This document shows, piece after piece, positions 5,480 through 34,440 of a DNA stretch of 38,207 bases; within the stretch, counting starts at the first letter, position 1; each line of letters opens with the position of its first letter. Source of the stretch: a virus; IMG/VR virus record IMGVR_UViG_3300044815_000046, positions 1-38,207 of that record. The stretch is one strand, 5' to 3'. The notes under the pieces are model-generated. The model did not search any database, was not told the origin of the DNA, and saw only the letters and a list, made by a program, of their open reading frames with translations. The translations under genes and the position numbers were made by a program.

Positions 5480-5610
5480 TCCATCTCTCCACATTCTGCG
5501 CAGGCCGTGACCTCTGAGCCGTCCGTTTGTTCGAACGTGACGAAGCGGTGCCCGTCGCCGTTCACGGAGTCGCAGAGGCAGGACCGCACGAACTCATCGA
5601 AGGTCAACAT
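5476..5610 (-). CDS. Cysteine-containing microprotein, 44 aa
   Basis: ATG 5610 lies 7 nt inside the end of the transglycosylase gene and the stop overlaps the next start (ATGA). CLCDS near residue 11 and CAECGE at the C-terminus could form one zinc site. It fills the only gap between its neighbours, which supports it as a real cistron. Confidence 0.55.
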   Translation of the reverse strand: MLTFDEFVRSCLCDSVNGDGHRFVTFEQTDGSEVTACAECGEME

Positions 5611-15930: not shown

Positions 15931-16617
15931 CTAGACCTTCGATGCGTTCACGGCGAAGCGAGCGGCGTTCCAGCCGAACTTGCGGTCCTCGTTCCCCCAC
16001 CCATCGGGTGCGGGTCCGGGGTCCACGCCGTGCTTCTCTTTCAGCGCCGCTTGGTAGTCCTTCCAGCCTTGCTTGAACTTCTCGTACATCTCGTCATCCC
16101 CGTTCTTCTCAACGGCGCCGAGCTCGAGGCGAGCCTTGAACGTCATCTGCTTGGCGTCGGCTGGCGTGCCGGCCCAGTCGAAATGTTGCCAGTCGTTGAT
16201 CGGAGGGCCGAGCCACCGGAACCCGTACTTGCGGAACAGCACCGGCACCCACTGCGGCATCTTGTAGGTGGACGCCCCGTACACGTTGTCCAGCGAGTTG
16301 AAGTCGATCGCGAGCCCGTAGCTATGGTTGCTGGGGATCGGGTTGCCGGCCGCGTCCTCGGCGCATGTGCCATCTGAGCGATGCGAGCAGCGGCATACCG
16401 ACCCCCAACACTGCCCATTCTTCGGCGGGTAGCCCTTGCGGATGCACTCGGCCAGCAGCAACTCGAGGAGTTCGCAGATGTCCTTGTGAACCTTGCCGAA
16501 ACTCACGCCGTTGGCCGCGACGAGCGGCACCCACGGATCCTCGTGGCAGTTGGGGTAGCCACTCGGCCAACCCCTCTGATCCGGCCGCGTATTTGGGTAC
16601 GCGTAGTTGAAGGCCAT
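15931..16617 (-). CDS. Endolysin, M15 (VanY/L-Ala-D-Glu type) peptidase, 228 aa
   Basis: The catalytic domain (about 15-150) has SNHSYGLAIDF with zinc ligands H98 and D105, and NDWQHFDW with D142 and H145, the M15 peptidase signature. It would cut peptide stems of peptidoglycan. Six cysteines in CWGSVCRCSHRSDGTC are unusual and may bind metal or form disulfides. The C-terminal region (about 170-228; EDRKFGWNAARFAVNASKV) may bind cell wall or be a spacer. ATG 16617 has no Shine-Dalgarno and lies exactly 20 nt after a CCTTGACC element, suggesting a leaderless mRNA. Confidence 0.88.
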   Translation of the reverse strand: MAFNYAYPNTRPDQRGWPSGYPNCHEDPWVPLVAANGVSFGKVHKDICELLELLLAECIRKGYPPKNGQCWGSVCRCSHRSDGTCAEDAAGNPIPSNHSYGLAIDFNSLDNVYGASTYKMPQWVPVLFRKYGFRWLGPPINDWQHFDWAGTPADAKQMTFKARLELGAVEKNGDDEMYEKFKQGWKDYQAALKEKHGVDPGPAPDGWGNEDRKFGWNAARFAVNASKV

Positions 16618-16760: not shown

Positions 16761-18256
16761 CCACGGTGGTGCTTGCGCCGCTTCCTGGCATGGGTCCCGG
16801 CCACGAGCGAGGCGATGTTCACCGGCTGCTCCACCCCGAGCGTCACCGACGTAGGCCCCTGAGCTACCTCCATCACCCGGAGGGTTTGTGCCTCGCCCGG
16901 TCCCCAGTCTGCGATCTTCACCGTGTCGCCGTACCGGATAGCCCTGGGGTTATCTCGACCGTCCGTTGACTTCGCGGCCACGACCTCGATGGATCCCGCG
17001 TACCGCTGGGTCGAGAACCTACGGACCAGCTTGTCAGCCACCGCTGAGGGGAGCGCATTGGACTTCTGCCTGTCCTCCATCTCGAACTCGTACGTGTTGG
17101 TGAACCCAGGGATCGGATCGATCAGCGACAGGTCGACGACCGTGCGGAGCTTCGACCGCTTGACGCCGGCAGAGGTCTCGAAGAACACCCGCGCCTGGTC
17201 GAATAGCTCGAGCGGCTTGAGGTCTGCATCCGCGCCCTCAGCCTGCGAGACCGTCCATGCCGTCGTGCCCCAGGGGGCGTATTCGATGGTGTTGTTGCCG
17301 ATGCGCACGAAGTTGTCCTCCAACTCCGCGACGTACAGGAGCGCATCGAGCCACGAGCCCTGATCCCAGTCGAACGGGAGCACGTCGTAAGTCGTGGGCA
17401 CGACGCCTGCGGTGCTCCATGACATCTGCCCGGCGATGTAGGTCACCACGTCCGATGCGTTGTAGCTATCGGCCGTCGTGATGGACGAGTTCGCTCTGAC
17501 CTTGGTGAGCGTCCACCGCATCGCTGAGGCGTTCGGGGCGAACGTCCCATCGTTGCAGTGAAGCCCGAGGGTGAGCAGGTCGATGGATGCGCCCCCGATC
17601 GTGATGCTCTGCTGTGAGCCGTTGTTGCCGGTCGAGAGCAGCACCGTCGTCTCATTCGTCTCCGCGCTCGCGGGTCCGTTGGCGCGCTGCACCCGCACGT
17701 CGAGCTTCGGGAACTCGTCGGCCGCGTTGTAGGTCTGCGTCCACCGCAAACGTCCCCCGGCGAACTCCGCCCCCTCGGCGTACAGGATGAACACCGCGGC
17801 GTCGCCGGTCGCCATGGCCTGATCCTTGCCGAGCGAGAACCGCAGCGAGCCCGTGGTGGAGTCGAGCCCGACCTTGCGGGAGTGGTCATAGACCGGGATG
17901 TCGGAGCCATTCAGATGAGGATCCGAATCGGCCTGCACCCATTGGCCCATGTCGGCGGTCTGGATCAGAAGCCGTTGGGTTTTCTTGGCGGCCGCTTCCT
18001 TGTAGCCGGTGGCATTGAAGAACGCCATTCCGTCTTTGAGTTGCGGCGGCGCCGCGAACCGACCGGCCCACCGCACCTCCGCCCCCTCGTAGACGACGAG
18101 CGCAGCGCCCTGGGTGGGAGACCCGACCCTGCGGTACTCCTCCTCGCTCATCGCCCCCGAACACTGGTCGTAGCCGCCCTCGTTGTCGTTCGAGGCCCAG
18201 CCCTCAACCTTGGCTTCGTTGTCAGCCAGCGCGAACGCGACAGGCGCAAGGCTCAT
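16757..18256 (-). CDS. Minor tail protein (tip/hub region), 499 aa
   Basis: Second large gene after the tape measure, in the usual place of a tail-associated or baseplate hub protein. Sequence is beta-rich with NEAKVEGWASNDNEGGYDQC, FAGGRLRWTQTYNAADEFPK, and later a hub-like YAGSIEVVAAKSTDGRDNPR. The C-terminus is very basic (HARKRRKHHRG). No enzyme motif seen. Start overlaps the upstream tail gene. Confidence 0.75.
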   Translation of the reverse strand: MSLAPVAFALADNEAKVEGWASNDNEGGYDQCSGAMSEEEYRRVGSPTQGAALVVYEGAEVRWAGRFAAPPQLKDGMAFFNATGYKEAAAKKTQRLLIQTADMGQWVQADSDPHLNGSDIPVYDHSRKVGLDSTTGSLRFSLGKDQAMATGDAAVFILYAEGAEFAGGRLRWTQTYNAADEFPKLDVRVQRANGPASAETNETTVLLSTGNNGSQQSITIGGASIDLLTLGLHCNDGTFAPNASAMRWTLTKVRANSSITTADSYNASDVVTYIAGQMSWSTAGVVPTTYDVLPFDWDQGSWLDALLYVAELEDNFVRIGNNTIEYAPWGTTAWTVSQAEGADADLKPLELFDQARVFFETSAGVKRSKLRTVVDLSLIDPIPGFTNTYEFEMEDRQKSNALPSAVADKLVRRFSTQRYAGSIEVVAAKSTDGRDNPRAIRYGDTVKIADWGPGEAQTLRVMEVAQGPTSVTLGVEQPVNIASLVAGTHARKRRKHHRG

Positions 18257-20136
18257 GTGTAGTACCGCGGCTTGTGCTTCGCTTTGAACGTCAGCACCTC
18301 AGTGCGAGCGTTGCGGAACTCTGTCACGTCCCACTGCACGCCGGGGTACTCGGTCCACAGGCTGTAGACGACGGAGAGCCCTGGTGGGGCGACGAGAGGC
18401 GTGGGTCCACGCGGGTCGATGGTTGGGGCCGTCAGCACGCCCGCGGCACTCGTGCGGATCACGGTGCCGTCCTCCGCGTTGCTCACCGCCAGATCGGTCG
18501 CCGTGATGCCCTGCCCAACACCATCGACCATGCAGGCTCCGGGCGCCGGCACGAATGTGATGCAGTCCCATATCAGGTTCCCGGCTCCCGCGGTTCGGTT
18601 GGCGAGAACACGGAAGGCCTGTGAGGTCCACGAAGCGTCGGCCGGGAACGTCACCACGCCCATCAGCAGGTCGTAATACTGGGCGGCGGTGGCGGCGGTC
18701 GCCGTCGCGGTCAAGGTGGGTCCAACCGGGGTGGTTACTTCCAGCACCGCCGTGCCCGTGTACGTGGCATCGGCAGGCGCCACACGCATCAGCACGAGCC
18801 ACGTCTTGCCCCGAAGTGCCGACAGGATCGTGGCATCGGTGAGCGTGTACGTCGCACGCTGGGCGCTCGCTGTGACGAAGGTCGTTTTTTTGCCCGTGTT
18901 CCCCGTGCCAGGTGAAGAGAGCGCAGCGGTATCCACGGCCGTGTCGGTGCTGTTCGTCCAGTCCTCGAACTGCAGGCACGCGCCGTTGGTGTTCAGGTAC
19001 TCGATGAGCTTGCCCGTCCCCGGCGTGCCGGCGGGGTCGGAGAGGAACCCGACCATGGCACGCTGCGGCCCCGAGGTGGTGTTGTTCATCGTCAGCGTGA
19101 ACGGCGCCGGGGCGTTGCCCGCATTCACGATCGGGAACACACGCCCCATGTTCGTCTTGGGGTCGATGCTGCCGGTGGTCTCTGATCCCACACGGAAGGT
19201 CGAGGCGGCAGCGGCCAGCTCCATCTGCGCGTTCTTCCACTGCACCGTCGCGGCGGCGGTCTGCACCTTGAGCGTGCATCGAGCCCAAGCCGTCGTTGCC
19301 GGCGCGGTGAGCGTCAAGGAGTCGCGGGTGAAGATCGAAGATGAGATGCCCGTCGATGCAGAGCCCGAGATGAACGCCAGTCCCGCCGTGTACCACTCGA
19401 CCTGGACCTGAGCCACGCCGGATCCCGAGATGCGCTTGGCAAAGGCAGAGAACGTCCACTGCTGGCCGACAGAGGCGGCAACGTCCTGCAGGATCATGTT
19501 GCCCGCACCCGCCGCGACCGCTTGGAACGCCTCCGTGGCGGCGTCGATCGTGTACGTGCCCGCGACGCCGGTCCACCCGGTAGGTGCCGTGGGTATGTTC
19601 GGGGCACGAAGCAGCGTGGCGTTCAACAGCTTGTTCACCGTCGGGTCGAGTTCGGCGCCACGGAGGTAGGGCTGGCACGTCAGCGTGAGCGTCAAGCCGT
19701 CCGGTGTGTCCACCAGGGACGTGGCGAGGTAGCTGGACAGTTCCCGCCCGTCCATCGCGTACGGACTCGGTGAGGGCTCCACGTCGATGAACTTCACCAG
19801 CGACGAGGTGTTGGCCTGCCACTTGATCACGCAGCCCGCGTTGAGGTACTGGCTCAACCTGCCCAAGGCGCCAGCGAGCGAGTCGTAGGCGGCGGCTCGC
19901 ATCCGAAACCGGAACGTGACGGTGCGGAAGCCCGCCCGCTGGAACACGGTCGAGCCACCGTCACGCTGAGGTGGGGAGAACCGGGAGAACTCCATGGCGG
20001 GCTCGCCCAGGTTGGTGTTCTCCAGCAGCACCGTCGACGAGTAGCCGAGGTCGCCGACGTTCGCGGCCGTGGGGTCGTTGAAGTCGAACAGCACGGTGCT
20101 CGTGGTCTCATCGTATATCTGACACACCGATGCCAT
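18253..20136 (-). CDS. Distal tail / minor tail protein with carbohydrate-binding-like domain, 627 aa
   Basis: The N-terminal 165 residues (FDFNDPTAANVGDLGYSS, GFRTVTFRFRMRAAAYDS, DGLTLTLTCQPYLRG) resemble siphovirus distal tail proteins. Residues about 175-320 (ILQDVAASVGQQWTFSAFAK ... VQVEWY) look like a CBM-type jelly roll, likely for host glycans. A second beta domain and a C-terminal tail-like module (PGLSVVYSLWTEYPGVQWDV) follow. Position after the tape measure fits a tail-tip protein. ATG overlaps the preceding stop. Confidence 0.78.
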   Translation of the reverse strand: MASVCQIYDETTSTVLFDFNDPTAANVGDLGYSSTVLLENTNLGEPAMEFSRFSPPQRDGGSTVFQRAGFRTVTFRFRMRAAAYDSLAGALGRLSQYLNAGCVIKWQANTSSLVKFIDVEPSPSPYAMDGRELSSYLATSLVDTPDGLTLTLTCQPYLRGAELDPTVNKLLNATLLRAPNIPTAPTGWTGVAGTYTIDAATEAFQAVAAGAGNMILQDVAASVGQQWTFSAFAKRISGSGVAQVQVEWYTAGLAFISGSASTGISSSIFTRDSLTLTAPATTAWARCTLKVQTAAATVQWKNAQMELAAAASTFRVGSETTGSIDPKTNMGRVFPIVNAGNAPAPFTLTMNNTTSGPQRAMVGFLSDPAGTPGTGKLIEYLNTNGACLQFEDWTNSTDTAVDTAALSSPGTGNTGKKTTFVTASAQRATYTLTDATILSALRGKTWLVLMRVAPADATYTGTAVLEVTTPVGPTLTATATAATAAQYYDLLMGVVTFPADASWTSQAFRVLANRTAGAGNLIWDCITFVPAPGACMVDGVGQGITATDLAVSNAEDGTVIRTSAAGVLTAPTIDPRGPTPLVAPPGLSVVYSLWTEYPGVQWDVTEFRNARTEVLTFKAKHKPRYYT

Positions 20137-20307: not shown

Positions 20308-20751
20308 CTAGAGTGGGTACTGCGGGAAGAAGTCCGCGTGAACATGCGAGTAGTGGTCGCCGAGCGGTGAGGGGAAGTACGGGTCCGCGAGCAGGTGCGC
20401 GATCGAGAACAGCGCCCGGTTAGCGTCCGACCAGTACGCGACCTGGCGGTGCAGGTCGCCCGTGCACATCACGTCCACCGCGTTGCCCCAGTTGTGCTGG
20501 CTCAAGGTGGACGTGCCCGCGATGTTGCGGTGCGCCACGATGCCGAGCGGCAGGTTGCCGAACGTCGCACGGACGGCGCCGGCGTACAGCGCAGCGGCAG
20601 GGGTGGCGCCCGCGATCGAGGGTATCTCGATCTCCACTTCGATGACGAAGTTGGTGGTGTTCAGTTGCTCCATCGCCGCGTTCAACGTCTCGGGATCCAC
20701 CCAGTTCGGCGAGCAGGTATCCCGGACGCGCGTTCCCCCGAGTTGCGGCAT
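20308..20751 (-). CDS. M15-peptidase-like tail protein, 147 aa
   Basis: Starts with a one-base TGATG overlap at the tape-measure stop. The C-terminal part has STLSQHNWGNAVDVM and GDHYSHVHADFFPQY, matching the SxHxxGxAxD and HxH zinc motifs of M15 carboxypeptidase-like proteins (H86, D93, H138). The N-terminal 70 residues are a beta-rich lead. Likely a virion tail-tip peptidase or binding protein acting on peptidoglycan during DNA entry. It is distinct in sequence from the endolysin. Confidence 0.7.
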   Translation of the reverse strand: MPQLGGTRVRDTCSPNWVDPETLNAAMEQLNTTNFVIEVEIEIPSIAGATPAAALYAGAVRATFGNLPLGIVAHRNIAGTSTLSQHNWGNAVDVMCTGDLHRQVAYWSDANRALFSIAHLLADPYFPSPLGDHYSHVHADFFPQYPL

Positions 20752-22520
20752 CAGGGAGAACCCTTCGAGAGTTGGAGGAACTGGTCGAGCGCCTCGCCAC
20801 CCGAGACTTTGTACGCGAACGTGATGGTCGGGCTGGCATTCTTCGACCCGAGCCTGCCGAGTGCCCCGCTCAGGGAGTTCGTCTTGCCGGTGGCGGTGTC
20901 GATCTGGCCGCCGAGATTCTTCTGCGCGTCGAGGATGCCGTTGATGTCCTCCACCGCTTTGTCGCGGCCCTTCTTGTTGGCGTCCACGAACGCGGAGATG
21001 GCTTCCGGTCCCTGGTCGATCAGGAACTTGCGGATGCTGTCGCCGATGTGGATCTTGTTGAACTCGCGGAAGTCCTTGAACGTCTCCTGCGCGCGCGCGC
21101 GCATGTTGTCCAAGCCGCGGAGGAACTGCGTCACCGTTCCCTCGAACCGGCGCTTGAACCCGAAGACAGATTCGCCGGCGACGGCGAAGTCCTCCTTGGT
21201 CTGTTCCCGGAAGTCGCCGAGCTCCTTGCCCGTGAGGTGGGCGAAGTTCGCGATCTTGTTCCCGGTCTTGTCGAAGTGAACCCGCAGGTCGTTCACGCCC
21301 TGGGAGACCTCCGCCACCTTGCGGTTGATCTTCGGGAGCGTCTTGCCTGTCGATTCCAGGACCGTGCGGTACTGCTCGACCGTGAGGCTGCCAGCCGCGA
21401 ACGAGCTCGCGGCTTGCGACTGGACGGCAACGAGGAACTCCTGCTCGTTCCCATAGCGCACCGCCTCCTCACGCAGCAACGCGAACGAGGAGGCGAAGTT
21501 GATCAGTTCATCGCTTCTGGCGAAGTCCGAGATGACGAACGCCGCTGCATCTCCAACCTGCGCGAGATTGTCTGCAGCACTCTTCGCCCGTAGCGCCAGC
21601 CCGTAGAGCACCAAGCCCAGCGCGGCGGCGAGCGGGGCCACCGCCGACATGCTCACGGCCACCGCGACGATCTTCGAAGCCAGCACCGCGACAGATGCCG
21701 CTACCTGAGCGAAGTTCACCGCCACCCACGCGGCAGCGAACGCGGCGGTGAAACTAGCGATAGCCGGGAGATTGTCCAGCATCCACGTCAGCGTTGCCAC
21801 GAGCCCGTTCAACACCGGGATGAGGTACGTGCCGACCATCTCCTGGAGCTCATCGAACTTCTGCGCGAGGATCTGCGCCTGGCCCTCGGAAGTCTTGCCG
21901 AACTCCTCGGCCACCCCCCCAACCTTCTCTTGCAGGATGCCCATGAGAGTCGCAAGGTCTTGCGTCGTGTGTCCGGTCGCCTCGAACTCCCCACCGATGG
22001 CCTTGATGGCGCGGGCGTTGCCGAGCAGCGCCTTACCGAGCGTCTGCGCCGCCGCCGCCGCGTCGATACCCTGGGCATGGGCGAAGTCCAGGACGAGCGG
22101 GTTGAGTTCCATCAGTTGGTCGGTCGTGAGGTTGTAGCGAGACAGGATGGTGTCGGCGTTCAGGATGGCCTCGTCGCTGAACCCGGTCACCATCTGCAGC
22201 GCGGACGCTTGGGCTTCGAGCGCGGTGGTGTCGCCCTTGATAGCAAGCGTCAACTGGCTGATGGCCTGCTCGTGCTCCTGCGCTGCCGCGATAGCTGAAG
22301 CCGCGAACTTGACCGCGCCGACGGCGAGGCCCGCAAGCGCCACCGTGCCAACAGCCTTGAGCTTGGAGAACGACGAGCCCATCGCGGCCGTTGAACCCTT
22401 GGTCTGCGCTTCTGCGCCGGCGAGCCCCGCCTTCAACCCCGTGTCATTGATGCCGAGCAGCACGGTCGCGCCGCCGATCGCACCGCCCGAGAGCGCGCCG
22501 AGGAACGCGCCGGTAGCCAC
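20751..22520 (-). CDS. Tape measure protein, 589 aa
   Basis: Longest helical protein of the tail module. The N-terminus is small-residue-rich (GALSGGAIGGATVLLGINDT), with coiled-coil stretches, a hydrophobic stretch at about 240-310 (IASFTAAFAAAWVAVNFA, LAAALGLVLYGLAL), and further helices to the end. It follows the frameshifted chaperones, as is standard. At roughly 0.15 nm per residue the tail would be near 90 nm. GTG start overlaps the chaperone stop (TAGTG). Confidence 0.92.
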   Translation of the reverse strand: MATGAFLGALSGGAIGGATVLLGINDTGLKAGLAGAEAQTKGSTAAMGSSFSKLKAVGTVALAGLAVGAVKFAASAIAAAQEHEQAISQLTLAIKGDTTALEAQASALQMVTGFSDEAILNADTILSRYNLTTDQLMELNPLVLDFAHAQGIDAAAAAQTLGKALLGNARAIKAIGGEFEATGHTTQDLATLMGILQEKVGGVAEEFGKTSEGQAQILAQKFDELQEMVGTYLIPVLNGLVATLTWMLDNLPAIASFTAAFAAAWVAVNFAQVAASVAVLASKIVAVAVSMSAVAPLAAALGLVLYGLALRAKSAADNLAQVGDAAAFVISDFARSDELINFASSFALLREEAVRYGNEQEFLVAVQSQAASSFAAGSLTVEQYRTVLESTGKTLPKINRKVAEVSQGVNDLRVHFDKTGNKIANFAHLTGKELGDFREQTKEDFAVAGESVFGFKRRFEGTVTQFLRGLDNMRARAQETFKDFREFNKIHIGDSIRKFLIDQGPEAISAFVDANKKGRDKAVEDINGILDAQKNLGGQIDTATGKTNSLSGALGRLGSKNASPTITFAYKVSGGEALDQFLQLSKGSP

Positions 22521-24184: not shown

Positions 24185-24529
24185 CTAACTCGCTTTCTTC
24201 AAAGGTCGCGGTGGAGGAACGCCGCGGCCTTTGAGGTCACGGTCGCGGTTGTTGTCCGCTGCGGTGCCTAGCCACAGATGTGAGGGGTTCACACACGGCG
24301 GGTTGTCGCACGAGTGACATACGAACAGCCCGGCTGGGACGGCACCGTGCGCCAGTGCGTAGGCAACGCGGTGGGCAGGGTCGCATTCGCTATGCCCCAT
24401 CGAGAACTGTCCGTACCCGTACTTATCGCGGGAGGCGTCCCACTCCCAGCAGTCGTCGGGGCCAGCGCCCACGTACGCCACCTTGGACCAGAAGCGCTCG
24501 CCGACAGGGGCCGCTGCGTATCCGCTCAC
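24185..24529 (-). CDS. HNH homing-type endonuclease in the tail module, 114 aa
   Basis: ERFWSKV near the start and AHRVAYALAHGAVPAGLFVC followed by HSCDNPPCVNPSHLWLG is the well-known HNH_3-type signature with its zinc cysteines; TAADNNRDRDLKGRG ends the domain. It lies between a short pre-tail gene and the tail tube, in frame with both through overlaps or near-overlaps. This looks like a mobile insertion that has been tidied into the operon. Confidence 0.92.
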   Translation of the reverse strand: MSGYAAAPVGERFWSKVAYVGAGPDDCWEWDASRDKYGYGQFSMGHSECDPAHRVAYALAHGAVPAGLFVCHSCDNPPCVNPSHLWLGTAADNNRDRDLKGRGVPPPRPLKKAS

Positions 24530-25205: not shown

Positions 25206-25681
25206 CAGAGCTTCACCCCGAACCCGAACGCCGCGAGAACACGCCTGGCAACAGCCGAGTAGCCCGCGCGCGCCCAGCCCTGCGCGGCCGGCCGCATCGC
25301 GGGGAAGGCTCGCTGCGGACCTCTCATCACTCCACGCACCGGGTGAGCCAGCCCTGCGCCCGCCAACGCGCCCTTGTCTCCGGAACCGCCCCGAACGACC
25401 ACCGTCGTAACGCGCCCCGTGCTCGACGCAGTGCCGACGCCCGACGCGTTGATGGGGTAGGGGCCCTTCCCGCCGAGTTCGAACAGCCCTTGCAGTCCTT
25501 CGGGTTGAAGCTGGGCGTGCTCCGCGTCGATGACCTTGAGGTTCACGTCCGACTTCGAGGTGTTGTGACGGCGCAGCTTCGCGTCCGCTGCCGCCGCCTC
25601 GAACGATGACAGGTTGGCACTCTTGACCGCGCTCGTGAGGCGAGTGGTGTCCCACCAGAACTGAGGCAGCGGGGAAGCCAC
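25205..25681 (-). CDS. Head-tail connector / HK97 gp10-like protein, 158 aa
   Basis: GTG start overlaps the adaptor stop (TAGTG). Helical N-terminus (WWDTTRLTSAVKSANLSSFE), then basic beta segments (VRGVMRGPQRAFPAMRPAAQ) ending AFGFGVKL. It occupies the connector slot between adaptor and terminator. Confidence 0.65.
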   Translation of the reverse strand: MASPLPQFWWDTTRLTSAVKSANLSSFEAAAADAKLRRHNTSKSDVNLKVIDAEHAQLQPEGLQGLFELGGKGPYPINASGVGTASSTGRVTTVVVRGGSGDKGALAGAGLAHPVRGVMRGPQRAFPAMRPAAQGWARAGYSAVARRVLAAFGFGVKL

Positions 25682-26376
25682 TAGCCCACGGCCACCTTCT
25701 GCCGGCGCTCGAAGTCGCGGATGATCTCGTCGGCCTCCCCGATACCCGAGAAGATGCCCTCGGCGGGGTTGGGCTGGGCGTACCGCACGAGAACGCCGCC
25801 GGCCTGGACGGATTCGGCGTCGCGCAGGTCATCCCTCTTGCGCTTGACGTGATCCCACACCAGCAGCGCCAGTGCGCGCTTGATCTCCGGTGGCGTCACG
25901 GTCCAGCCGTATGTGCCCGTGACCTGAACGCTTCCGGCCGCGTTGGGCCAGCAGTAGGTGCTTCCACCGATACCCACCGATGACAGTCCTGTGCCACCGT
26001 AGAGCAGGTCGATCCAGTCCAGGATCGCGTCCTGGTTGATGCGGTCATCCCCCGCCGCGTTCAGCGACGAGTGGAGGCGATAGCCCGTCGTCGTGAGAGC
26101 GGCCGAGAGCGTGCCGGTCTCGTCACGCGTCTTGACCGCTGTCACGGCGGTGAAGCGCTGCGGCAGGTAGAGCCGGGCCGTTCCGCGTCCATCGACCTCG
26201 AGCGCGCCCGTCGTGGGCTCGAAGCGGTCGTTGCACCAGCGTTGGAGGCGCTTGGTCACGCGAGCGATCGCTGCGGCCAGGGGCGCGTCCTCGGCTTCGT
26301 CATCGGTGAGGGGCAGCCCGATGCACGCCTCATTGAGGCTTTCCGTCCTGAACGAGCTAGGGGTGAGAAGGCTCAA
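25681..26376 (-). CDS. Head-tail adaptor (gp6-like) protein, about 231 aa
   Basis: Helical N-terminal half (DDEAEDAPLAAAIARVTKRL) with ring-forming adaptor features, then YGWTVTPPEIKRALALLVWD and a C-terminal GIGEADEIIRDFERRQKVAV. The likely start is TTG at 26376, which overlaps the preceding stop as TTGA; no in-frame ATG or GTG lies near. An in-frame start at 26463 would lie inside the neighbouring gene and is not preferred. Confidence 0.75.
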   Translation of the reverse strand: MSLLTPSSFRTESLNEACIGLPLTDDEAEDAPLAAAIARVTKRLQRWCNDRFEPTTGALEVDGRGTARLYLPQRFTAVTAVKTRDETGTLSAALTTTGYRLHSSLNAAGDDRINQDAILDWIDLLYGGTGLSSVGIGGSTYCWPNAAGSVQVTGTYGWTVTPPEIKRALALLVWDHVKRKRDDLRDAESVQAGGVLVRYAQPNPAEGIFSGIGEADEIIRDFERRQKVAVG

Positions 26377-26714
26377 TCGACATACACATCCTGGAGGTCG
26401 ACGGTTCCGTAGTTGATCTCGGCCCGCGAGCCCGAGTCGGTGCGGCGGAGGCGATACCACCAATCCGATGCGGGGTTGAGCCCGATCGTGTCGGCGCTCG
26501 CGATGGCTACAGTGCAGATGCCTAATAGCGGCGTGGTCAGCGTGGCGGTCTTGGTGAGGTCGGCCGAGCCCGAGAGCACGTCAGCGAGCGCGAACTGGAT
26601 CGTCCAACCCGTGATGTTCTGCACCGCGCCACCGGTGGTGACCGTGAACACCAACCCCTTGTCCTCACCGATGAACCAGCCATCTGCCGCGGTGATGTCC
26701 CTGCGGGTGCTCAT
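26373..26714 (-). CDS. Small beta-sandwich domain protein, paralogue A, 113 aa
   Basis: Shares ADGWFIGED, ITGWTIQF and LTKTATLTTPL-x-GICTVA with the protein at 28824-29189. The fold resembles the N-terminal module of phage baseplate/decoration proteins (BppU-like), likely an Ig-type beta sandwich. It closes the cassette at its downstream end, next to the adaptor gene. Probably a structural attachment domain. Confidence 0.7.
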   Translation of the reverse strand: MSTRRDITAADGWFIGEDKGLVFTVTTGGAVQNITGWTIQFALADVLSGSADLTKTATLTTPLLGICTVAIASADTIGLNPASDWWYRLRRTDSGSRAEINYGTVDLQDVYVD

Positions 26715-26977
26715 GGGCTACCGACCGACGTGATGGTGGGGTCGTAGGTGCCCGCGATGGCGATGATGGGCGAGTAGGAACCGAGCAAGGTCACTGTTGC
26801 ATCGTGCGTCCCAAGTAAAGGTAGCGACGGGCTGTAGGCGCCCGCCACGGCCACGTTATCGAGCGATCCAGCGATAGCGATCGAGGGCGAGTAAAGCCCC
26901 AGGATCTCGGTGATATCGACCGGGTTGGTGTCCAGGTCTCCGTCGAGCAAGAGCGACGACAGCAGGAGCTCGCTCAT
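26711..26977 (-). CDS. Decapeptide-repeat protein, 88 aa
   Basis: After a hydrophobic, acidic N-terminal 27 residues, the protein is six tandem units of about 10 residues of form xY(S/D)PxIxIxG (LYSPSIAIAG, AYSPSLPLLG, SYSPIIAIAG, TYDPTITSVG). The same unit ends the 508-aa cassette protein. Such short repeats usually form an elongated beta structure. ATG overlaps the upstream stop. Confidence 0.65.
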   Translation of the reverse strand: MSELLLSSLLLDGDLDTNPVDITEILGLYSPSIAIAGSLDNVAVAGAYSPSLPLLGTHDATVTLLGSYSPIIAIAGTYDPTITSVGSP

Positions 26978-28824
26978 GCGTGGGTCACCAGCTTCCAGCC
27001 GGTGTTCCCCGCGCCCGTTTTCTTGATGTAGCCCTCGCCGTTCGTGGTGTCGGCGCAGTAGGACCCCATCGGAGCAGTGACGACGGACTCAGGCGTGCCG
27101 GCGTTGGTGCAGAACCGCACACCGTCGAGCGAGAGCGCCTGGCCCTTGAGCAGCCCCACGTCCCCGACACGGACGTTCGACGAGGACGACACGACCGATT
27201 CCATGAACGCGAGCACTTCGGAGTCCGACCAAGTGGCCGTTGGGATGTGGTAGAAGCACGGCGCGAAATACTCGACGGAGGCGTTCGTGTCGCAGTAGAT
27301 GTTCAGGTTCGTATTTGCTCCGCCCGTGGGGATCGCCGCGACCTTCACGGCGTCCACGACGAAGATCTCGTCCTTGTCACCGAGCCATGGGTGCTTGAGT
27401 TCGGCGAACGTCGCGGTCGTCCCGTTGCCGCGGTCGAACAGGTTGCCCGCACCCGTCATGGCGATCTGCATCACCTTGTTCGGGAAGCCCGTGGACGTGC
27501 GCTTGATCCAAGCCCCGTAGACGTACCAGTCACCGACCGCGAGCGAGTGGCCCGAATGGGCGATGTCCACGATGGTCTTGTTGCCCGATGCTCCCGAGAG
27601 CTCCGCAGCGTTCGTCGTACCATCCGGCGCGGTGCGGCCCGTGGTGACGGTGCAGGAACCAGACAGCCCGCTCCACGTCGAAGTGTCGTGAGGCGCGCGT
27701 TGGATGAACCTCACGACCGCTGGAGCAAACGCCCTGCGAACCGCATCGGTGCGCCCGAACACCCGGCCCTTCCAGAACCCCACCTGGCGATGTCCCTGGG
27801 GGCTCGTGGTCACGACTGCCGAGCTGGAGTCGTAGCGGCTGAGGACGGTGGCCGGGCCGGAGACATCCGTAGCCCCCGCGACCACAACGATGGAAGGGTC
27901 GTTGCCGGTTGCCACCATGACCGCGGGTTGGCGGGTGCCGGCGTCGGCCTGCTCGATCCCCCGGACGTGGGCGTGACCGGGCGCGTTGGTGACCTTCGAT
28001 GCGAACCAGTAGATCGGGCCAGACGTGAGGTCGCCCGTCGATGGACCCTCCTGCACGCAGGACTCCACGATGGTGTTCACCGAGCCGGAGGAATACTGCT
28101 TGACTCCCCCGCCGCCGTTGAAGTTCGTGTCCCTGATCCAGATGAGCCCCTCACCGATGCCGTTGCCCCGGATCAGGACGGCAGGACGCTTGTCGTTGCT
28201 CCATACGACCTGCTCGTTGCAGGAGAAGTCGCAGTCGCGGATGTAGAGCCAGTACGCCGACGTGATGTCGATGACCGGGCCATAGGCGGAGTTCTGCTCG
28301 CAGCGCAACACGATGTTGTCGAACGTGAAGAAGGCGTTGTTGGTCGAGCCCGCGCCGGTGGAGTCCAGCCCCAGGATGACGGGATGGGCCAGGGCCGTCT
28401 GCGAGAAGTTCACGAACTCTAGCGGCAGGTTGTTCCCCGAGGCCCATAGCAGCGGCCGGTTGACATCGGTCGGCGAACCGGCGTTGAGCGTCGCGGTTGG
28501 CTTGTGGCTCTGCCCGGTGGGATCCAGGACAGGGATGCCTTCGAGCTTCATCGCGATCGGGCGTCGCCACCCGGCAGCGAGGAGCGCCGGGGTCAATGCT
28601 CCGCTGTTCCACTGTGAGTCCCCCGGCCCCGCCAGCTGGATACCGCGCGTCGGGTTGGCGGAGTCCCAGCAGGAACCGGACTCGAACAGGATGGTGGCAC
28701 CGCCGAGCCCGCCCGCCAGCGCCGCGTCGTAGGCGCCCAGCGCGTCCTTCTTGGGATAGTTCCAGGTGCGGCCGTCGTTGCTGTTGTCGCCCGTGGGCGA
28801 AACGCAGAAGGCGCCGGTGGGCAT
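26974..28824 (-). CDS. Right-handed beta-helix spike-like protein, 616 aa
   Basis: Start at ATG 28824, one-base TAATG overlap. The opening CVSPTGDNSNDGRTWNYPKK and the stretch about 90-300 with repeated inward-facing V/I and N ladders (AFFTFDNIVLRCEQNSAYGP, LIWIRDTNFNGGGG) match pectate-lyase-like beta-helices. The region around 400-560 is a carbohydrate-binding-like jelly roll (GSCTVTTGRTAPDGTTNAAE). The C-terminus is small and Cys-containing. Such proteins usually bind or cleave surface glycans. Its location in the head-gene region suggests a capsid-surface fibre. Confidence 0.75.
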   Translation of the reverse strand: MPTGAFCVSPTGDNSNDGRTWNYPKKDALGAYDAALAGGLGGATILFESGSCWDSANPTRGIQLAGPGDSQWNSGALTPALLAAGWRRPIAMKLEGIPVLDPTGQSHKPTATLNAGSPTDVNRPLLWASGNNLPLEFVNFSQTALAHPVILGLDSTGAGSTNNAFFTFDNIVLRCEQNSAYGPVIDITSAYWLYIRDCDFSCNEQVVWSNDKRPAVLIRGNGIGEGLIWIRDTNFNGGGGVKQYSSGSVNTIVESCVQEGPSTGDLTSGPIYWFASKVTNAPGHAHVRGIEQADAGTRQPAVMVATGNDPSIVVVAGATDVSGPATVLSRYDSSSAVVTTSPQGHRQVGFWKGRVFGRTDAVRRAFAPAVVRFIQRAPHDTSTWSGLSGSCTVTTGRTAPDGTTNAAELSGASGNKTIVDIAHSGHSLAVGDWYVYGAWIKRTSTGFPNKVMQIAMTGAGNLFDRGNGTTATFAELKHPWLGDKDEIFVVDAVKVAAIPTGGANTNLNIYCDTNASVEYFAPCFYHIPTATWSDSEVLAFMESVVSSSSNVRVGDVGLLKGQALSLDGVRFCTNAGTPESVVTAPMGSYCADTTNGEGYIKKTGAGNTGWKLVTHA

Positions 28825-29189
28825 TAGGCCACCCGGCCCTGCAGCACCGCCGTGCCCCACGCCAGCACTTGGTTCTGACCCGCGTCGATACGGGCGAGCG
28901 TGTAGTGGAACGTCCCCGGAGAAAGCCCTGGGGTGTCGGTCGCGGCCACCGCGACGGTGCAGATACCGCTCAACGGGGTCGTGAGGGTGGCGGTCTTGGT
29001 GAGCACCGACGCGCCGGTCTCAGTGGGGGCCATACGGAACTGGATCGTCCAGCCGGTGATGTCCTTGGCGACCGGGGGCGAGACAGCCGTGAGGGGGTCA
29101 AGGTCAGTGATGGGCCACTGGAACGACTGATCCTCACCGATGAACCAACCATCGGCCTCGGTGATGGGGCTGTTGCCGGGGATCTTCAC
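28824..29189 (-). CDS. Small beta-sandwich domain protein, paralogue B, 121 aa
   Basis: GTG 29189 is preferred because it lies exactly 20 nt after a CCTTGACC element; GTG 29192 is 3 nt upstream. Shares several blocks with 26373-26714 (ADGWFIGED, ITGWTIQF, LTKTATLTTPLSGICTVAVA). It sits at the other side of the beta-helix gene, so the pair flanks the spike. Likely an attachment or collar domain. Confidence 0.7.
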   Translation of the reverse strand: MKIPGNSPITEADGWFIGEDQSFQWPITDLDPLTAVSPPVAKDITGWTIQFRMAPTETGASVLTKTATLTTPLSGICTVAVAATDTPGLSPGTFHYTLARIDAGQNQVLAWGTAVLQGRVA

Positions 29190-29195
29190 CACGCA

Positions 29196-29216
29196 AGCGT
29201 CGGCTAGGGGTCAAGG
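29196..29216 (-). promoter_or_regulatory. Late element: CCTTGACC-N7-GACGCT, upstream of the spike cassette
   Basis: CCTTGACC overlaps the stop of the upstream repeat protein, and GACGCT ends 6 nt before the GTG at 29189, which has no Shine-Dalgarno. It would drive the paralogue B, spike and repeat-protein genes. Confidence 0.5.
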
Positions 29217-30737
29217 CTGATAGGCACCCGGCTTCACGACGGTCGGGGCGTGTCGGGCGGCCTTGGCGATGGTCGGGGCGTGCACCCCGTCGAGCACCAC
29301 CCGCGGGGCGTAACGCGCCTGCTTCACGACGGTCGGGGACCAGACGCCCAGGAGCTCGATCGTGTAGACCGCGAAGGCGTCCCCGGTGTTGATCGTCGTC
29401 ACCGACTGCCCGGTGAGCGTGATGGCGCCGGGCTGGAGCGCCACGAGGGTGCGGAGCGCGATTTGCTGGCCTGAGAGCGTCAGAGCGCCCGCAGAGACCG
29501 ATACCGTCCGACTAGTCGCAACCGTCTGGCCGGTCAGCGTGAGGGCTCCAGGGACGGTCGTAACGGTGTTTCTGAGCAGGACCGCTTGGCCGGTGAGCGT
29601 TATGGCCCCTGGAGTGACGGTGGAGACCGTCGCCACCAGCGTGGTGACGGCCTGGCCCGTAAAGGTCACCGCACCGGGGTTCGACACGATGGAGGTGCGC
29701 AGCAGCACGGTCTGACCCGCGAGCGTGAGGGCTCCCGGCACCGAGACCGAAGCCACCGTGGCAACGGCGATGTTGACGGTCTGCCCGGTGAGCGTGATCG
29801 CTCCAGCCCCGACCGCTTGCGACTGCCGCAGCAGGACAGACTGGCCCGCGAGGGTCAGAGCTCCCGGCGTGATGGTGGCGACCGTGGCAACGGAGGTGTT
29901 CACCGTCTGGCCGGTCAGCGTGATGGCCCCTGGGTTCGTGACCACCGAGGTGCGCAGCAGGGGCGTCTGGCCCGTGAGCGTCACGACGCCGGCCGTCACT
30001 GCCTGGGATTGCCGCAGCAGCACCGACTGACCCGTGATCGTCAGCACGCCCGGCGTCGTGACCTGCACCGTCGTGACGGTGGAGGCGGCGTCGATCTCGT
30101 AGATCGCGGTGAAGTTCGCCGCGTCGGTGCCCGAGGTGCCGGTGAACGCCTGCGTTGCGGCGAGGTGATAGATCGACAAGCCCGTCACCGGGGTCGAGAC
30201 GCCGGTGTCCATATCCTCGGTCCATCCGGCGTTCGTCCAGGCGGGGGGGTTGCGCCTGGTCATCACTGCGACCAGCGACATCGAATCGGAGTCGGGGGCC
30301 ACGGACATCGACACCGTGGGGTCGGTCCCCGATGCGTTGGTGGCGCTGTTCGTCTGCTTGATCGGCGTGGTGGTGTTCGCGCCCGCGAACTCCCCTATCC
30401 ATCCGTCGCACGCAAGGATGGTCTGATCCCAGTTCGCGTTCACGGCCGTCACCGAGGCAGGCGAGCCACCGACCGGAGCGGTGAGTACATGCAGCCGATA
30501 GAACTGCGTGTTGGTCCAGGCGTAGACCGTGGCGTACTTCGTCCAGGTAAGGCTCATCCCCGTGCTGGTGACGGAGGTCAGATCGAAGGTCGCGTCGGCG
30601 GTCTTGGCACCCTCGACAACGCAGACCAGCAGCCCGCCGGCGGTCGGGGTGAAGGCTCCCGCCGTGGCGAGGTTGTAGACCGATGCGTCGGTCGCGGATG
30701 CGAACTCCGCGCGCTCAGCGGTGAAGGTGACGGCCAC
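29211..30737 (-). CDS. TLTGQ-repeat cassette protein, 508 aa
   Basis: Residues 1-215 form a beta-rich head domain (FTAERAEFASATDASVYNLA; GGLLVCVVEGAKTADATFDL) of a type common in phage structural proteins. Residues about 229-450 contain 11 units of about 20 residues with core PGA(I/L)TLTGQ; units alternate between xVLLR and VNxxVATV linkers. The C-terminal 43 residues are four 10-residue units (WSPTVVKQA, YAPRVVLDG, HAPTIAKAA, HAPTVVKPG). It would be an elongated fibre. GTG start has AGGA 5 nt upstream. Confidence 0.75.
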   Translation of the reverse strand: MAVTFTAERAEFASATDASVYNLATAGAFTPTAGGLLVCVVEGAKTADATFDLTSVTSTGMSLTWTKYATVYAWTNTQFYRLHVLTAPVGGSPASVTAVNANWDQTILACDGWIGEFAGANTTTPIKQTNSATNASGTDPTVSMSVAPDSDSMSLVAVMTRRNPPAWTNAGWTEDMDTGVSTPVTGLSIYHLAATQAFTGTSGTDAANFTAIYEIDAASTVTTVQVTTPGVLTITGQSVLLRQSQAVTAGVVTLTGQTPLLRTSVVTNPGAITLTGQTVNTSVATVATITPGALTLAGQSVLLRQSQAVGAGAITLTGQTVNIAVATVASVSVPGALTLAGQTVLLRTSIVSNPGAVTFTGQAVTTLVATVSTVTPGAITLTGQAVLLRNTVTTVPGALTLTGQTVATSRTVSVSAGALTLSGQQIALRTLVALQPGAITLTGQSVTTINTGDAFAVYTIELLGVWSPTVVKQARYAPRVVLDGVHAPTIAKAARHAPTVVKPGAYQP

Positions 30738-30746
30738 GGCCGTCCT

Positions 30747-31214
30747 CTATGAGACCGTCGCGGTCCAGAGGCCGGATGCAGTCACGTCGATCGTGAACGT
30801 GTTGCCCGTGGTGATCGTTTGAGCGCCCACGTCGATGTAGCCGATGAGCGGCTTGACGGGCGGACCCGTGCCGATGGAATCATCGTGAACCGCGGCGTAC
30901 TGGAACACGAGCGAACCACCCGATGCCGTCCACGACACGTCATCGCACGCGAACGTGGTGACGTTCCCGGTGCCGTTGTACGTGAGGGTCTTGGTGCTGA
31001 GCGTGATGCCGTTCGCGGTGTAGCCGTTCGCGGTGCTCAGTTCGTTCGTAGCGTCGGCGAACGCTTCGTTGGTGTCGATGTTCGGCGTCCAGGTGACGGT
31101 ATGCAGCGTGATCTTGAGCGTGTCGGACAGGATGTCCATCTGCCCAGCATCGCCGGACGCCTCGCCGCCCTGGACGTTCGCGCCGTACTTGCCGAACAGC
31201 TGCATGGTAGCCAC
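30747..31214 (-). CDS. Virion beta-sandwich protein of the LSDTLKITLHT type, 155 aa
   Basis: The motif run LSDTLKITLHTVTWTPNIDT, TANGITLSTKTLTYNGTGNV and KPLIGYIDVGAQTITTGNTF is shared by many small phage structural proteins of unresolved role. GTG start (TAGTG overlap) has a GAGGTGG site 7 nt before. Candidate capsid decoration. Confidence 0.75.
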   Translation of the reverse strand: MATMQLFGKYGANVQGGEASGDAGQMDILSDTLKITLHTVTWTPNIDTNEAFADATNELSTANGYTANGITLSTKTLTYNGTGNVTTFACDDVSWTASGGSLVFQYAAVHDDSIGTGPPVKPLIGYIDVGAQTITTGNTFTIDVTASGLWTATVS

Positions 31215-31534
31215 TAGGACGCCACCTCGATCCAGTCAGCGGCGACCTGCTCATCGGTGAGCGGTTCAGCGGCATAGCCGTAGCGGTCGACCTCATGGCC
31301 CTTGGGGCACGTCGCGCTCACGTGGACCGCGATGCCCTTGCGTTCCTCCATGGCCTCGGTGCGATCCTGGCCGCACTCCACCGAAGCGGAGCGGCCGTCG
31401 GGCAGTTCGACGGTCTCGATGGTGTTGCAGACCCCCGGCGAGATCCGCCGGCGCAGCGTCGGGCCCTTGGCGGCATCGAAGTCGGCCTGGGCTTGGCCGT
31501 GACGCGAGAGCGCTTCCTTGGACTTCGCCATCAC
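31214..31534 (-). CDS. Hypothetical head-region protein, 106 aa
   Basis: GTG 31534 overlaps the upstream stop; ATG 31531 is an alternative. Basic N-terminus (AKSKEALSRHGQAQADFDAA), two cysteines in VCNTIETV and VECGQD, and CPKGHEVDRYGYA. Small soluble protein among capsid genes; may be a minor head component or assembly helper. Confidence 0.6.
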   Translation of the reverse strand: MMAKSKEALSRHGQAQADFDAAKGPTLRRRISPGVCNTIETVELPDGRSASVECGQDRTEAMEERKGIAVHVSATCPKGHEVDRYGYAAEPLTDEQVAADWIEVAS

Positions 31535-31890
31535 AGATACGCGTCCGCGGTCAGAGTCACATTCGTGTTCGCGGATCCCACGATGCGGACGAACTGCCAG
31601 GGCTGGTTCGCCTGGAGCAGGTAGGTCGTGGTCACAGCCGTGGTGATCGTGATGGCCGTGATGACGAACGTGGAGGGTGTCGCGACGAGTGCGTACGGGA
31701 TGTTGAAGAAGGCCACGCCGTCAGCGGAGCCCTGGATGTTCACCGTGACGGTGGGGGTCGCGCCGATCGTGGACGTGATGACGACAGCGCCCGGCGACTG
31801 CGTATCGCTCGAGGAGCCTCGCGACGCGACCGCAGACGCGGTGGCAAGCACCTCAGCGGTGCAGAGCCGGGACTGGTCGAATGCGGCCAC
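31531..31890 (-). CDS. Beta-rich head-region protein, 119 aa
   Basis: GTG start overlapping the upstream stop (TAGTG). The sequence is alternating T/V/I strands (VVITSTIGATPTVTVNIQGS, YLLQANQPWQFVRIVGSANT) typical of small capsid or tail decoration beta-sandwiches. No family recognised with certainty. Confidence 0.65.
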   Translation of the reverse strand: MAAFDQSRLCTAEVLATASAVASRGSSSDTQSPGAVVITSTIGATPTVTVNIQGSADGVAFFNIPYALVATPSTFVITAITITTAVTTTYLLQANQPWQFVRIVGSANTNVTLTADAYL

Positions 31891-32168
31891 TACTTTCCCT
31901 TCGTGCTCTGCGTGGTGAGCCCGGCTGCCTTGGGCTCTTCCTTCTCGGGGGCCGTGCGGGGCGCGCGTTTCTCACCGGGGGCCGCTGTTGCGGCTTCCAC
32001 GTCGGGGGCTCCGCCGCGGCGTGATGCCTCCAGGGGCTTGAACAGGTGCGGCGCGAGCTTGAGGATCGGATCTCCCCGCTTCACGCGCGTGGTGTCTTTC
32101 GTGAACATCTCGCCCTCTTGCGTCGTGAAGCTCTCGCTGGCGACGAACCACTCTGTCTGTGGAGCCAT
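31890..32168 (-). CDS. Small post-capsid protein, 92 aa
   Basis: Start at 32168 with a perfect GGAGGA site. N-terminal APQTEWFVASESFTTQEGEM and a VKRGDPILKLAPHLFKPL core, then a charged disordered tail (GEKRAPRTAPEKEEPKAAG). Found directly after the capsid gene in many actinophages; likely a minor head protein. Confidence 0.68.
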   Translation of the reverse strand: MAPQTEWFVASESFTTQEGEMFTKDTTRVKRGDPILKLAPHLFKPLEASRRGGAPDVEAATAAPGEKRAPRTAPEKEEPKAAGLTTQSTKGK

Positions 32169-32226: not shown

Positions 32227-34440
32227 TTACAGGCCGACCAGCGTGATCCCGCCTGCCGGGTCGAACACCCGTGCGGTGTTGCGCCACATCGCGTAGACGC
32301 CGCGCTGCCCGGAGGGGTAGTTGGCCGTGAGGCCGAACAGATGCGGGATCAGTTCGATGTCGAGCCCGACCCGCTCCACGATCACGTAGAAGCTCGGGTC
32401 CATGAGGACCGCTTCCTTCACGGTCGTGGCGAGCGTTGCGACCATGGCCGATGACTCGTTGGCCGGGTAGCCGATGAGGTTGAAGCCAGTGTTCCCGGTC
32501 TCGTTCGCCGGGATGCCCGTGCGCAGGTCCGGCACCCACAGGTTCGCGCCGCCGGCGGTGTCGAGCTGGCGAACCTTGTTGTACCAGAAGCGGTTCGCGA
32601 ACCACTGCGCGTTGTCACGGAACCGCGGAGGCAGGGCCTCTTCGGTCTTGTAGATGTCGTTGACTGCCAGCACCGTCGTGGTGCCCGTGGTCGCGGTGTT
32701 CGTCATGCCGACCACGATGCCCTGCGGGAGCACGCCGGTGCCGAGGCCGGTGGCGAACTGGGTGGCCTCCAGCACGTCCTTCGAGTCCTGGATCAGTCCG
32801 GCCATCTCCGACTGCAACGCGCCCCAGTCTTGGTCCAGTTCGATCGAGAACGGGATGAAGGTCTGCGCGCGCTTCGTGATGAAGGCGGGCTGGGCCAGCG
32901 TCGGCGAACGGTCCACCGCTTCGGTGGCTTCTGCCTCATACGTCGCGACCACGGCGCCCGACGACACTCCACGCCACTCATTCGTCCCCGAGATCGAGAC
33001 CACGCGACACGCCCGGCGGAACGGGTTCACCGCGCCACTCGAGGTCTTCACGATGGTCGGGTCGAGATCGAACGTGATGGCGAACCCACCGGTTGCACCG
33101 GCGCCCTCTGCCATCACGGTCCGCTCTTCGGAGGTGAGGGTGTCGAGGGAACCTGCCTTGATGGCTTTGCCCAACGCCCTGCGGTAGGTCGGGGAGCCGG
33201 TCGTGAGGATCCTGCGGCTGATCTCGGCGTCCTGAGACTCCGAGGTCTTGAGCAGCTTCTCGACCTGGCCCTTGGCGTCTTCCTGGTTGGCGCGCTGGTG
33301 GGCGAACGTCGCACCCTCGACGGCCTTCATGGCGCGGTCGCGGAACATCTGCGAGGCGTTGTCGGGATCGCGTGCGTCCCGGTAGACCGCGGCCTTGTTG
33401 TAGATGTCCTGGACGGGCTTCATCACCTGGAAGTCGCGGTCCGGTGGCTCCACCGTCTCGCGCTTCTCGCCGAACGAGGCCACGCGCTGTTCGCGCTTCA
33501 CCTGAGCCTCGAGGTCACGCGTCACCTTCTCGAGGGCTTCCTCGGCCTCGTCGTAGCGCGTCTGCACGTCGGGCGGCAACTGGCCGCTGTGCTCTTCTGA
33601 GATGGCGGTGATCTCGGCTTGCAACTCCGTGATCCTTGCGCCCTTGTCTTCCTTGGTTCGAAGCTGTTCGGTGTCCACGACGGGGGCCTCCTTCGGCTCC
33701 TCGAGTTGCTCTGGATCGCGGCGCTCCGTCGAGGTGGCCTGTGCGGCCGGCGTCGTGGAGGGTGCGGACTTCTTCTGTTCGAGCGCACCTTCGATGAGGT
33801 GCGCCAGTTCCTTGGGCTTGGTGCGGGCGGCTTCGAGCAACTGCGCTTCGAAGCCCGAGGTGTCTCGATACCAGTCCGTGAGCGACCGAACCCCGACTTC
33901 GGTGTCAACTTCGGCCGGGAAGGTGACGGGGCCGGCCTCCATCACGCGGGCTTCCTTGATCGTGCGCTGCGGGATGCCGTCGGGGTTCCAGTCGGAACGC
34001 TCGGGGCGCTCCTCGATGTCCTCGCGCAGGACGTTGAAGCGGTAGGACGCGCCGTACACCCCTGCGTCGATGCCGGGAAGGATCTCGCGGTTGTAGGCGG
34101 TATCCAACATGGTGCCGCCCATGAACGGCCCCTCGTCGTCTTCGCGCACATCTTCGATCGCGGCGACGGGCTTGTCCCCCACCACGGGGTCGCGGCCGTG
34201 CTGGAACAGCATCCGCATCCGCGCCAGGTTCTCCTGGAACGTCTTCGCCATCGCGCCCTTCTCGACGCGCTCCATGAACCGGCCCTCGTAGGGGGAGTTG
34301 ATCTCGTTCCAAGTCCCGTACCGGGCGAAGCGGACGCCGATGTAGGGCATCTGCCCGTCTTCGGCCTTCCGAACCTCCACTCGCGTCGGAACCGCCCGCA
34401 CAAGGTCTTGACGCGGCAGGCTCATGGGGTCGTTGTCCAT
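32227..34440 (-). CDS. Fused prohead protease and HK97-type major capsid protein, 737 aa
   Basis: Residues 1-195 are an HK97-family protease: H81 (LFQHGRDP) and S132 (GASYRFNV), with VMEAGPVTFPAEVDT after it. Residues about 205-340 form a charged coiled coil acting as the delta scaffold. The rest is an HK97-fold capsid (GAGATGGFAITFDLDPTIVK, TFIPFSIELDQDWGALQSEM, GIVVGMTN) ending in VFDPAGGITLVGL. Fusion of protease and capsid in one gene is known in several phages and implies self-processing. ATG follows the portal stop by 3 nt. Confidence 0.92.
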   Translation of the reverse strand: MDNDPMSLPRQDLVRAVPTRVEVRKAEDGQMPYIGVRFARYGTWNEINSPYEGRFMERVEKGAMAKTFQENLARMRMLFQHGRDPVVGDKPVAAIEDVREDDEGPFMGGTMLDTAYNREILPGIDAGVYGASYRFNVLREDIEERPERSDWNPDGIPQRTIKEARVMEAGPVTFPAEVDTEVGVRSLTDWYRDTSGFEAQLLEAARTKPKELAHLIEGALEQKKSAPSTTPAAQATSTERRDPEQLEEPKEAPVVDTEQLRTKEDKGARITELQAEITAISEEHSGQLPPDVQTRYDEAEEALEKVTRDLEAQVKREQRVASFGEKRETVEPPDRDFQVMKPVQDIYNKAAVYRDARDPDNASQMFRDRAMKAVEGATFAHQRANQEDAKGQVEKLLKTSESQDAEISRRILTTGSPTYRRALGKAIKAGSLDTLTSEERTVMAEGAGATGGFAITFDLDPTIVKTSSGAVNPFRRACRVVSISGTNEWRGVSSGAVVATYEAEATEAVDRSPTLAQPAFITKRAQTFIPFSIELDQDWGALQSEMAGLIQDSKDVLEATQFATGLGTGVLPQGIVVGMTNTATTGTTTVLAVNDIYKTEEALPPRFRDNAQWFANRFWYNKVRQLDTAGGANLWVPDLRTGIPANETGNTGFNLIGYPANESSAMVATLATTVKEAVLMDPSFYVIVERVGLDIELIPHLFGLTANYPSGQRGVYAMWRNTARVFDPAGGITLVGL

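Follow-up and report, generated by a model that had tools for sequence, protein, structure and literature searches.

In the lactococcal neck passage structure (NPS), a BppU-type domain has been proposed to act as a collar at the tail-capsid connector, with an ancillary role in glycan binding (PMC6669499). A region of the satellite phage MiniFlayer was termed a possible adsorption module by its authors; its particle is short-tailed, and the virions bear short fibres, have no long tail and engage in capsid-to-capsid contact (PMC10690885). Gene 76 of phiCbK has been proposed to encode a head filament, the identity itself being unproven (PMC3556154). In R4C, an Ig-like attachment domain on the adaptor lies outside the capsid and was proposed by the authors to be stabilising (PMC10276861), and HFTV1 has been seen binding cells head-first (PMC9973310).

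The locus described here lies in a window (the whole stretch of DNA analysed) that is an IMG/VR record of 38,207 bp. Late genes are on the minus strand, in the order terminase, portal, protease-major capsid protein (MCP) fusion, nine ORFs, adaptor, putative tail tube protein (338 aa, between adaptor and tape measure), tape measure (20751-22520) and two large tail-tip candidates. A WhiB gene (1595-2197, PF02467) points to an actinobacterial host. No terminal repeats were found in the window, and a capsid-alignment search of GTDB genomes found no prophages. As the first-pass annotation had claimed, nine successive minus-strand ORFs separate the capsid fusion from the adaptor, with the 616-aa ORF, the 508-aa ORF and the paralogue pair where it had placed them. 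The genes of this interval and its two boundaries are as follows.

32227..34440, minus strand: protease-major capsid fusion (PF04586 and PF05065), the upstream boundary of the cassette
31890..32168, minus strand: g109, 92 aa from an ATG with a good RBS, phrog_9538 (E=2e-7), adjoining the MCP gene in L002-L005; head module, not cassette
31531..31890, minus strand: g119, 74-81% identical to proteins encoded beside MCP in L003, L004 and L005; head module, not cassette
31214..31534, minus strand: g106, Cys-containing protein between head module and cassette
30747..31214, minus strand: g155, 155 aa, phrog_644, proposed to lead the fibre module or to form its base
29211..30737, minus strand: g508, repeat fibre of 508 aa with an N-terminal domain of ~220 aa, 11 LTGQ repeats and C-terminal short repeats
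28824..29192, minus strand: g122, proposed Ig-like docking domain, phrog_1084, paralogue of g113
26974..28824, minus strand: g616, spike of 616 aa with a tailspike-type C-terminal module and a CBM-like stretch at about residues 373-496
26711..26977, minus strand: g88, short-repeat peptide of the G-x-Y-x-P type (sequence read directly)
26373..26714, minus strand: g113, proposed Ig-like docking domain, phrog_1084, overlapping the adaptor gene
25681..26376, minus strand: head-tail adaptor, HK97 gp6-like, phrog_442 (E=3e-21, profile positions 99-259 of 270), proposed docking site of g113

The nine ORFs had been taken as a single cassette, but two of them are head-module genes: g109 and g119 also follow MCP in the spike-less relatives L004 and L005, and we therefore assigned both to the conserved head module. 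No family match was found for g106 in Pfam and PHROG profile searches. The cassette proper is thus six genes, g155-g508-g122-g616-g88-g113. From g109 through the adaptor every junction is an overlap or a gap of at most 18 bp, with 58 bp between MCP and g109; a clear Shine-Dalgarno is present only at g109, and a weak one at g508. No promoter-like sites were found in the cassette region, and no terminator-like sites on the minus strand. Given this tight packing and the lack of a promoter-like site, the region looks like one operon, and the suggestion of separate transcription units within it, two of them with a ribosome-binding or late element of their own, is not supported. Recent acquisition judged by base composition was discarded, because the GC content of the cassette genes (0.62-0.68) shows no clear contrast with that of the other late genes (0.65-0.69).

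Several other genes in the window deserve mention. A 611-aa minus-strand protein (3659-5494), with an N-terminal coiled-coil-like stretch followed by a long beta-rich part, is encoded far from the structural genes and is possibly another fibre. A 114-aa HNH-like protein (24185-24529) lies between tail genes and has relatives in L014, L020 and L021. Two separate M15-type peptidase-like genes are found, one in the lysis region (15931-16617) and one beside the tape measure (20308-20751), the latter falling below the Pfam cut-off.

The fibre protein g508 contains 11 motifs of the type [ILV]T[LF][TSA]GQ at a regular spacing of 20-23 aa, whereas 20,000 shuffles averaged 0.017 such motifs and never gave more than 2; this bears out the repeats ascribed to it at first reading. 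No DNA-level tandem array was found within g508, indicating that the repeats are old at the protein level. Its relatives occur in L016, L017 and EBPR siphovirus 2. Judged by eye, the C-terminal repeats of g508 are of one type with those of g88, for which Pfam and PHROG profile searches gave no family match. Each repeat stretch (the end of g508, and g88) is followed by a phrog_1084 gene, and the plan of adhesin, repeat tail and Ig domain, with the likeness of the repeats resting on inspection by eye, is present twice in the cassette.

The spike protein had been described as a 616-aa beta-helix, a label that its matches do not confirm: g616 gave no Pfam family and no PDB sequence match, and only its C-terminus matches annotated tailspike C-termini (63% over 38 aa, E=6e-3; phrog_16355, E=5e-6), identifying a tailspike-type C-terminal module. 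Residues 373-496 resemble part of the window's 627-aa tail protein (E=0.002), and no direct homologues of g616 were found in IMG/VR. The 627-aa protein (18253-20136) is a tail-tip candidate that gave no family match; it has a CBM-like insert resembling part of g616 and is possibly an 'evolved' Dit.

The proposal that the cassette contains two paralogous domains was confirmed, since g122 and g113 are 49% identical over 110 aa (E=4e-32) and both belong to phrog_1084 (E=2e-6 for g113, E=5e-5 for g122). An orthologue of g122 is encoded in L017 (64% identity). A first scan of IMG/VR with the paralogue pair gave no matches, a three-sequence version found L017 and L101, and no direct homologues of g113 were found among GenBank phages. 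The predicted model of g113 (pLDDT 83.8) is Ig-like, and Foldseek matched it to DT57C/T5 baseplate proteins (E 2e-6 to 2e-5), the TP901-1 baseplate (4v96, E=9e-4), Bas63 connector proteins, the 80alpha baseplate and, more weakly, the R4C portal-adaptor complex (E=0.0013); several of these matches are tail-tip proteins. BppU_N (PF10651) had no match among the window proteins, the relatives in L064 and L128 fell below the Pfam cut-off (E=0.03-0.04), and none of 11 records held a match above it. The BppU-like fold predicted for g113 would support a protein that works like BppU, not membership of PF10651.

A connection between this domain and the neck comes from the adaptor. The window's adaptor lacks the N-terminal ~100 positions of the phrog_442 family, and g113 lies directly upstream, its stop codon overlapped by the TTG start of the adaptor. 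The capsid protein of L128 is 42% identical to that of the window, and between its capsid and connector genes one ORF of 309 aa combines a g113-type domain with an adaptor. This ORF scored 37.0 bits against a profile of g113, g122 and their relatives, compared with 8.2 for the best of 2,150 scored shuffled decoys; its N-terminus matches phrog_1084, an HRTV-25 gene annotated as BppU_N and a CRP-6 gene, while the C-terminal part has matches to phrog_5938 and to proteins annotated as head-to-tail adaptor/neck. An adaptor scan of IMG/VR gave no matches. The extra N-domains on the adaptors of L004, L005, L118 and L120 were considered as members of the g113 family and rejected, as their g113 profile scores were not above those of shuffled decoys, and the evidence for fusion therefore comes from L128 only. 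MiniFlayer gp9 and a 110-aa protein of L016 were set aside for the same reason, with only a weak hhalign result for the gp9 family. The L128 fusion makes the neck the best-supported docking site.

At the other end of the cassette, g155 is a member of phrog_644 (E=1.2e-16, profile positions 18-141 of 174) and is 80% and 77% identical to its homologues in L017 and L016, respectively. Its predicted model (pLDDT 91.2) gave no significant fold match in a Foldseek search of the PDB, and none to any decoration protein. When the phrog_644 profile was compared with PDB sequences, the sole plausible match was a marginal one to gp31 of Bxb1, a 'tail wing arm' (E=0.003-0.012). Of 63 viral contigs sampled, at least 42 have a major capsid gene as the upstream neighbour of the g155 homologue, a count that does not represent 42 independent events because around 40 of the contigs belong to one MiniFlayer-like lineage that dominates the sample.

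Related arrangements recur at the same locus in L016, L017 and L093, and in a comparable position in MiniFlayer. In L017 the order is MCP, phrog_644, a 363-aa protein, carboxylesterase, repeat fibre, g122 orthologue and a large spike-like ORF that leaves the contig and gave no match in a PDB sequence search; the carboxylesterase within this sister cassette (L017:7702-8490) is a 262-aa alpha/beta hydrolase of the carboxylesterase/BD-FAE type (PF20434, E=9e-23). L016 has MCP, phrog_644, fibres, a 1165-aa repeat protein, a 110-aa protein and the adaptor, and L093 has terminase, portal, MCP, phrog_644, fibre, phrog_1084 and a spike-like ORF, the functions of the neighbouring genes other than MCP being read from sequence and size. 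MiniFlayer has MCP, phrog_644, proteins of 68, 1376 and 111 aa and the adaptor. In phiCbK, gp75 is a phrog_644 protein encoded directly before gp76, the proposed head-filament gene, and gp75 (L097:11956-20846 for the gp75-gp76 pair) is a candidate base or chaperone of the filament. The haloarchaeal tailed virus HRTV-25 carries, shortly before terminase and portal, a phrog_644-like gene (a weak match, 17 bits against 10 for the best decoy), a gene for a laminin-G protein of 1569 aa, and a BppU_N gene (gp6-gp8, L132:1792-7306).

The MiniFlayer order (terL, portal, scaffold, MCP, phrog_644, giant fibre, ~111 aa, adaptor) is common to many IMG/VR contigs, among them L028, L029, L036, L044, L046, L051, L065, L069, L070, L075, L079, L080, L087, L089 and L090. 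When contigs were chosen by upstream gene-size pattern, 40 of 41 were no longer than 16.7 kb, suggesting that genomes of about the size of MiniFlayer's, possibly satellites, form an abundant lineage. No terminal repeats were found in the MiniFlayer-like contig L112; in another, L113, some 20-mers are common to both ends.

Between the window and L017, g155 is 80% identical but the capsid protein only about 40%, and L005 lacks the cassette although its capsid protein is 58% identical to that of the window; L004 and L005, both without the cassette, are closer capsid relatives than L016 and L017. The cassette has therefore been exchanged independently of the capsid, and the locus is mosaic. The same families also occur away from the head genes: phrog_644, a fibre gene and phrog_1084 follow the tail-tip genes and precede lysis-type genes in L064, a repeat fibre and phrog_1084 lie in the tail/lysis region of L101, and phrog_644 comes after minor tail proteins in Mycobacterium and Gordonia phage records. 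These families are therefore linked with adhesins and not specifically with the head, and the order of the genes is by itself not enough to place the window's products on the virion. The earlier phrase 'rather than tail fibres' holds for the locus, which is in the head region with capsid neighbours in most sampled contigs, but not for families that are also found in tail-fibre blocks.

The explanation that we favour, and to which we would give an even chance, is that of a mobile adsorption cassette, split among several genes, which would dock at the head-tail connector in analogy to the lactococcal NPS. The gene content, the paralogy, the domain fusion in L128, the recurrence at the locus and the mosaicism are observed; we infer its place on the virion, along with oligomeric state, docking partners, glycan ligand and reversibility. 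The phrog_644 protein g155 would lead two tandem sets, [g508 + g122] and [g616 + g88 + g113]. In g113, the Ig (BppU_N-like) domain would be the counterpart of the adaptor N-terminus in L128, sitting around the adaptor at the neck and holding the spike g616, and g122 would play the same docking role for the fibre g508. From the particle's head end, spike and fibre would then bind a surface glycan, and this initial attachment, which is probably reversible, would precede engagement of the tail tip; in L017 the carboxylesterase perhaps deacylates surface glycans. A polysaccharide role, raised as a possibility in the first-pass annotation, is plausible from the CBM-like stretch in g616 and the L017 carboxylesterase.

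What was originally proposed, a capsid-surface fibre system, survives as an adsorption-type fibre and spike cassette that is head-associated by its locus; as for the surface itself, the L128 fusion points instead to the neck, and docking there appears most likely from the sequences at hand. Fibres mounted on the capsid independently of the neck, with g155 on capsomers or vertices carrying fibre and spike, would fit a phrog_644 gene directly after MCP in most sampled contigs, the gp75-gp76 pair and apical head filament of phiCbK and the capsid-to-capsid contact of MiniFlayer. We nevertheless consider this arrangement distinctly unlikely, since it leaves aside the adaptor fusion, g155 has no fold match to any decoration protein and phrog_644 is also found in tail loci.

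It is less improbable, though still rather unlikely, that these are ordinary tail-tip fibres and spikes simply encoded in the head region, with g113 and g122 docking on a Dit-like ring in the manner of BppU. The cassette is encoded not downstream of the tape measure and tail-tip genes but upstream of them, in the interval from capsid to adaptor, where it adjoins the adaptor gene; in L128 a g113-type domain is fused to the adaptor, and the same kind of module is present in MiniFlayer, which has short fibres on its virions and no long tail; all of this weighs against a tail-tip position. In its favour are the phrog_644/phrog_1084 modules in tail-fibre loci of L064, L101, Mycobacterium and Gordonia phages, the marginal Bxb1 match and the fold matches of g113 to T5, TP901-1 and 80alpha baseplates. 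Moreover, the part of the window that runs from the tail-tip candidates to the lysis-type genes contains no recognised fibre gene, and the main receptor-binding set may therefore be the cassette, on either end of the particle. A common device would be absent altogether if g113 were an adaptor stabiliser only, as the R4C authors proposed for the Ig domain of their adaptor (PMC10276861), and the fibre and spike genes were unrelated recombining cargo at a mosaic locus. This we think very improbable, because the paralogue g122 comes after a fibre gene and phrog_1084 does so too in L017, L064, L093 and L101.

Beyond the neck-docked cassette of the window, we tentatively raise, as a doubtful generalisation, that phrog_644, a fibre or spike and a BppU_N-like domain form a mobile 'head-end adsorption' module that moves between head and tail-fibre loci. 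Such a module would be common to MiniFlayer-like satellites, actinophages, podovirus-like phages, phiCbK-type giants and haloarchaeal tailed viruses, with the same adhesive on either virion end. Receptor-binding proteins are usually sought downstream of the tape measure gene. If it is common for neck-docked adsorption appendages to have their genes between those for capsid and connector, a class of host-range determinants is being missed by annotation pipelines, for which phrog_644, phrog_1084 and the adaptor fusion are testable markers. For the head filament of phiCbK, itself still unproven, the phrog_644 link also offers a candidate base protein.

Compared with known systems, the cassette resembles each in part. 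RcGTA head spikes and HFTV1 turrets are likewise appendages carried on the head and believed to make the first contact with the cell surface, but they are different proteins at different head positions, and we claim no homology. The Bxb1 tail wing arm gp31 (PDB 9D93), marginally matched by the phrog_644 profile, is a named tail part and is absent among the Foldseek matches listed for g155. R4C and RcGTA place an Ig-like domain with a fold match to g113 on a dodecameric head-tail adaptor; there the Ig domain is fused in one protein, a structural role is proposed and no linked spike cassette is described. In phiCbK, gp75 stands directly upstream of a giant fibre gene, nearer to head than to tail genes, whereas no phrog_1084 match was found and the ligand is the flagellum. 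The gp6-gp9 genes of MiniFlayer occupy the same position between MCP and head-to-tail adaptor, with phrog_644 first and a last, 111-aa gene that touches the adaptor gene; they differ in having one 1376-aa protein instead of fibre and spike, and gp9 scores no better than decoys against the g113 profile. MiniFlayer attaches to the neck of its helper. Lactococcal NPS hold all parts in one polypeptide, while the window's cassette uses separate genes, without a BppU_N match above cut-off, doubles docking, fibre and spike parts, is led by phrog_644 and lies between capsid and adaptor genes. What it has in common with the NPS of 936/P335 phages (a collar with whiskers) is the combination of a BppU-type beta-sandwich, a fibre and a C-terminal CBM or beta-helix (PMC6669499), to which the predicted Ig-like domains, the repeat fibre and the spike would correspond.
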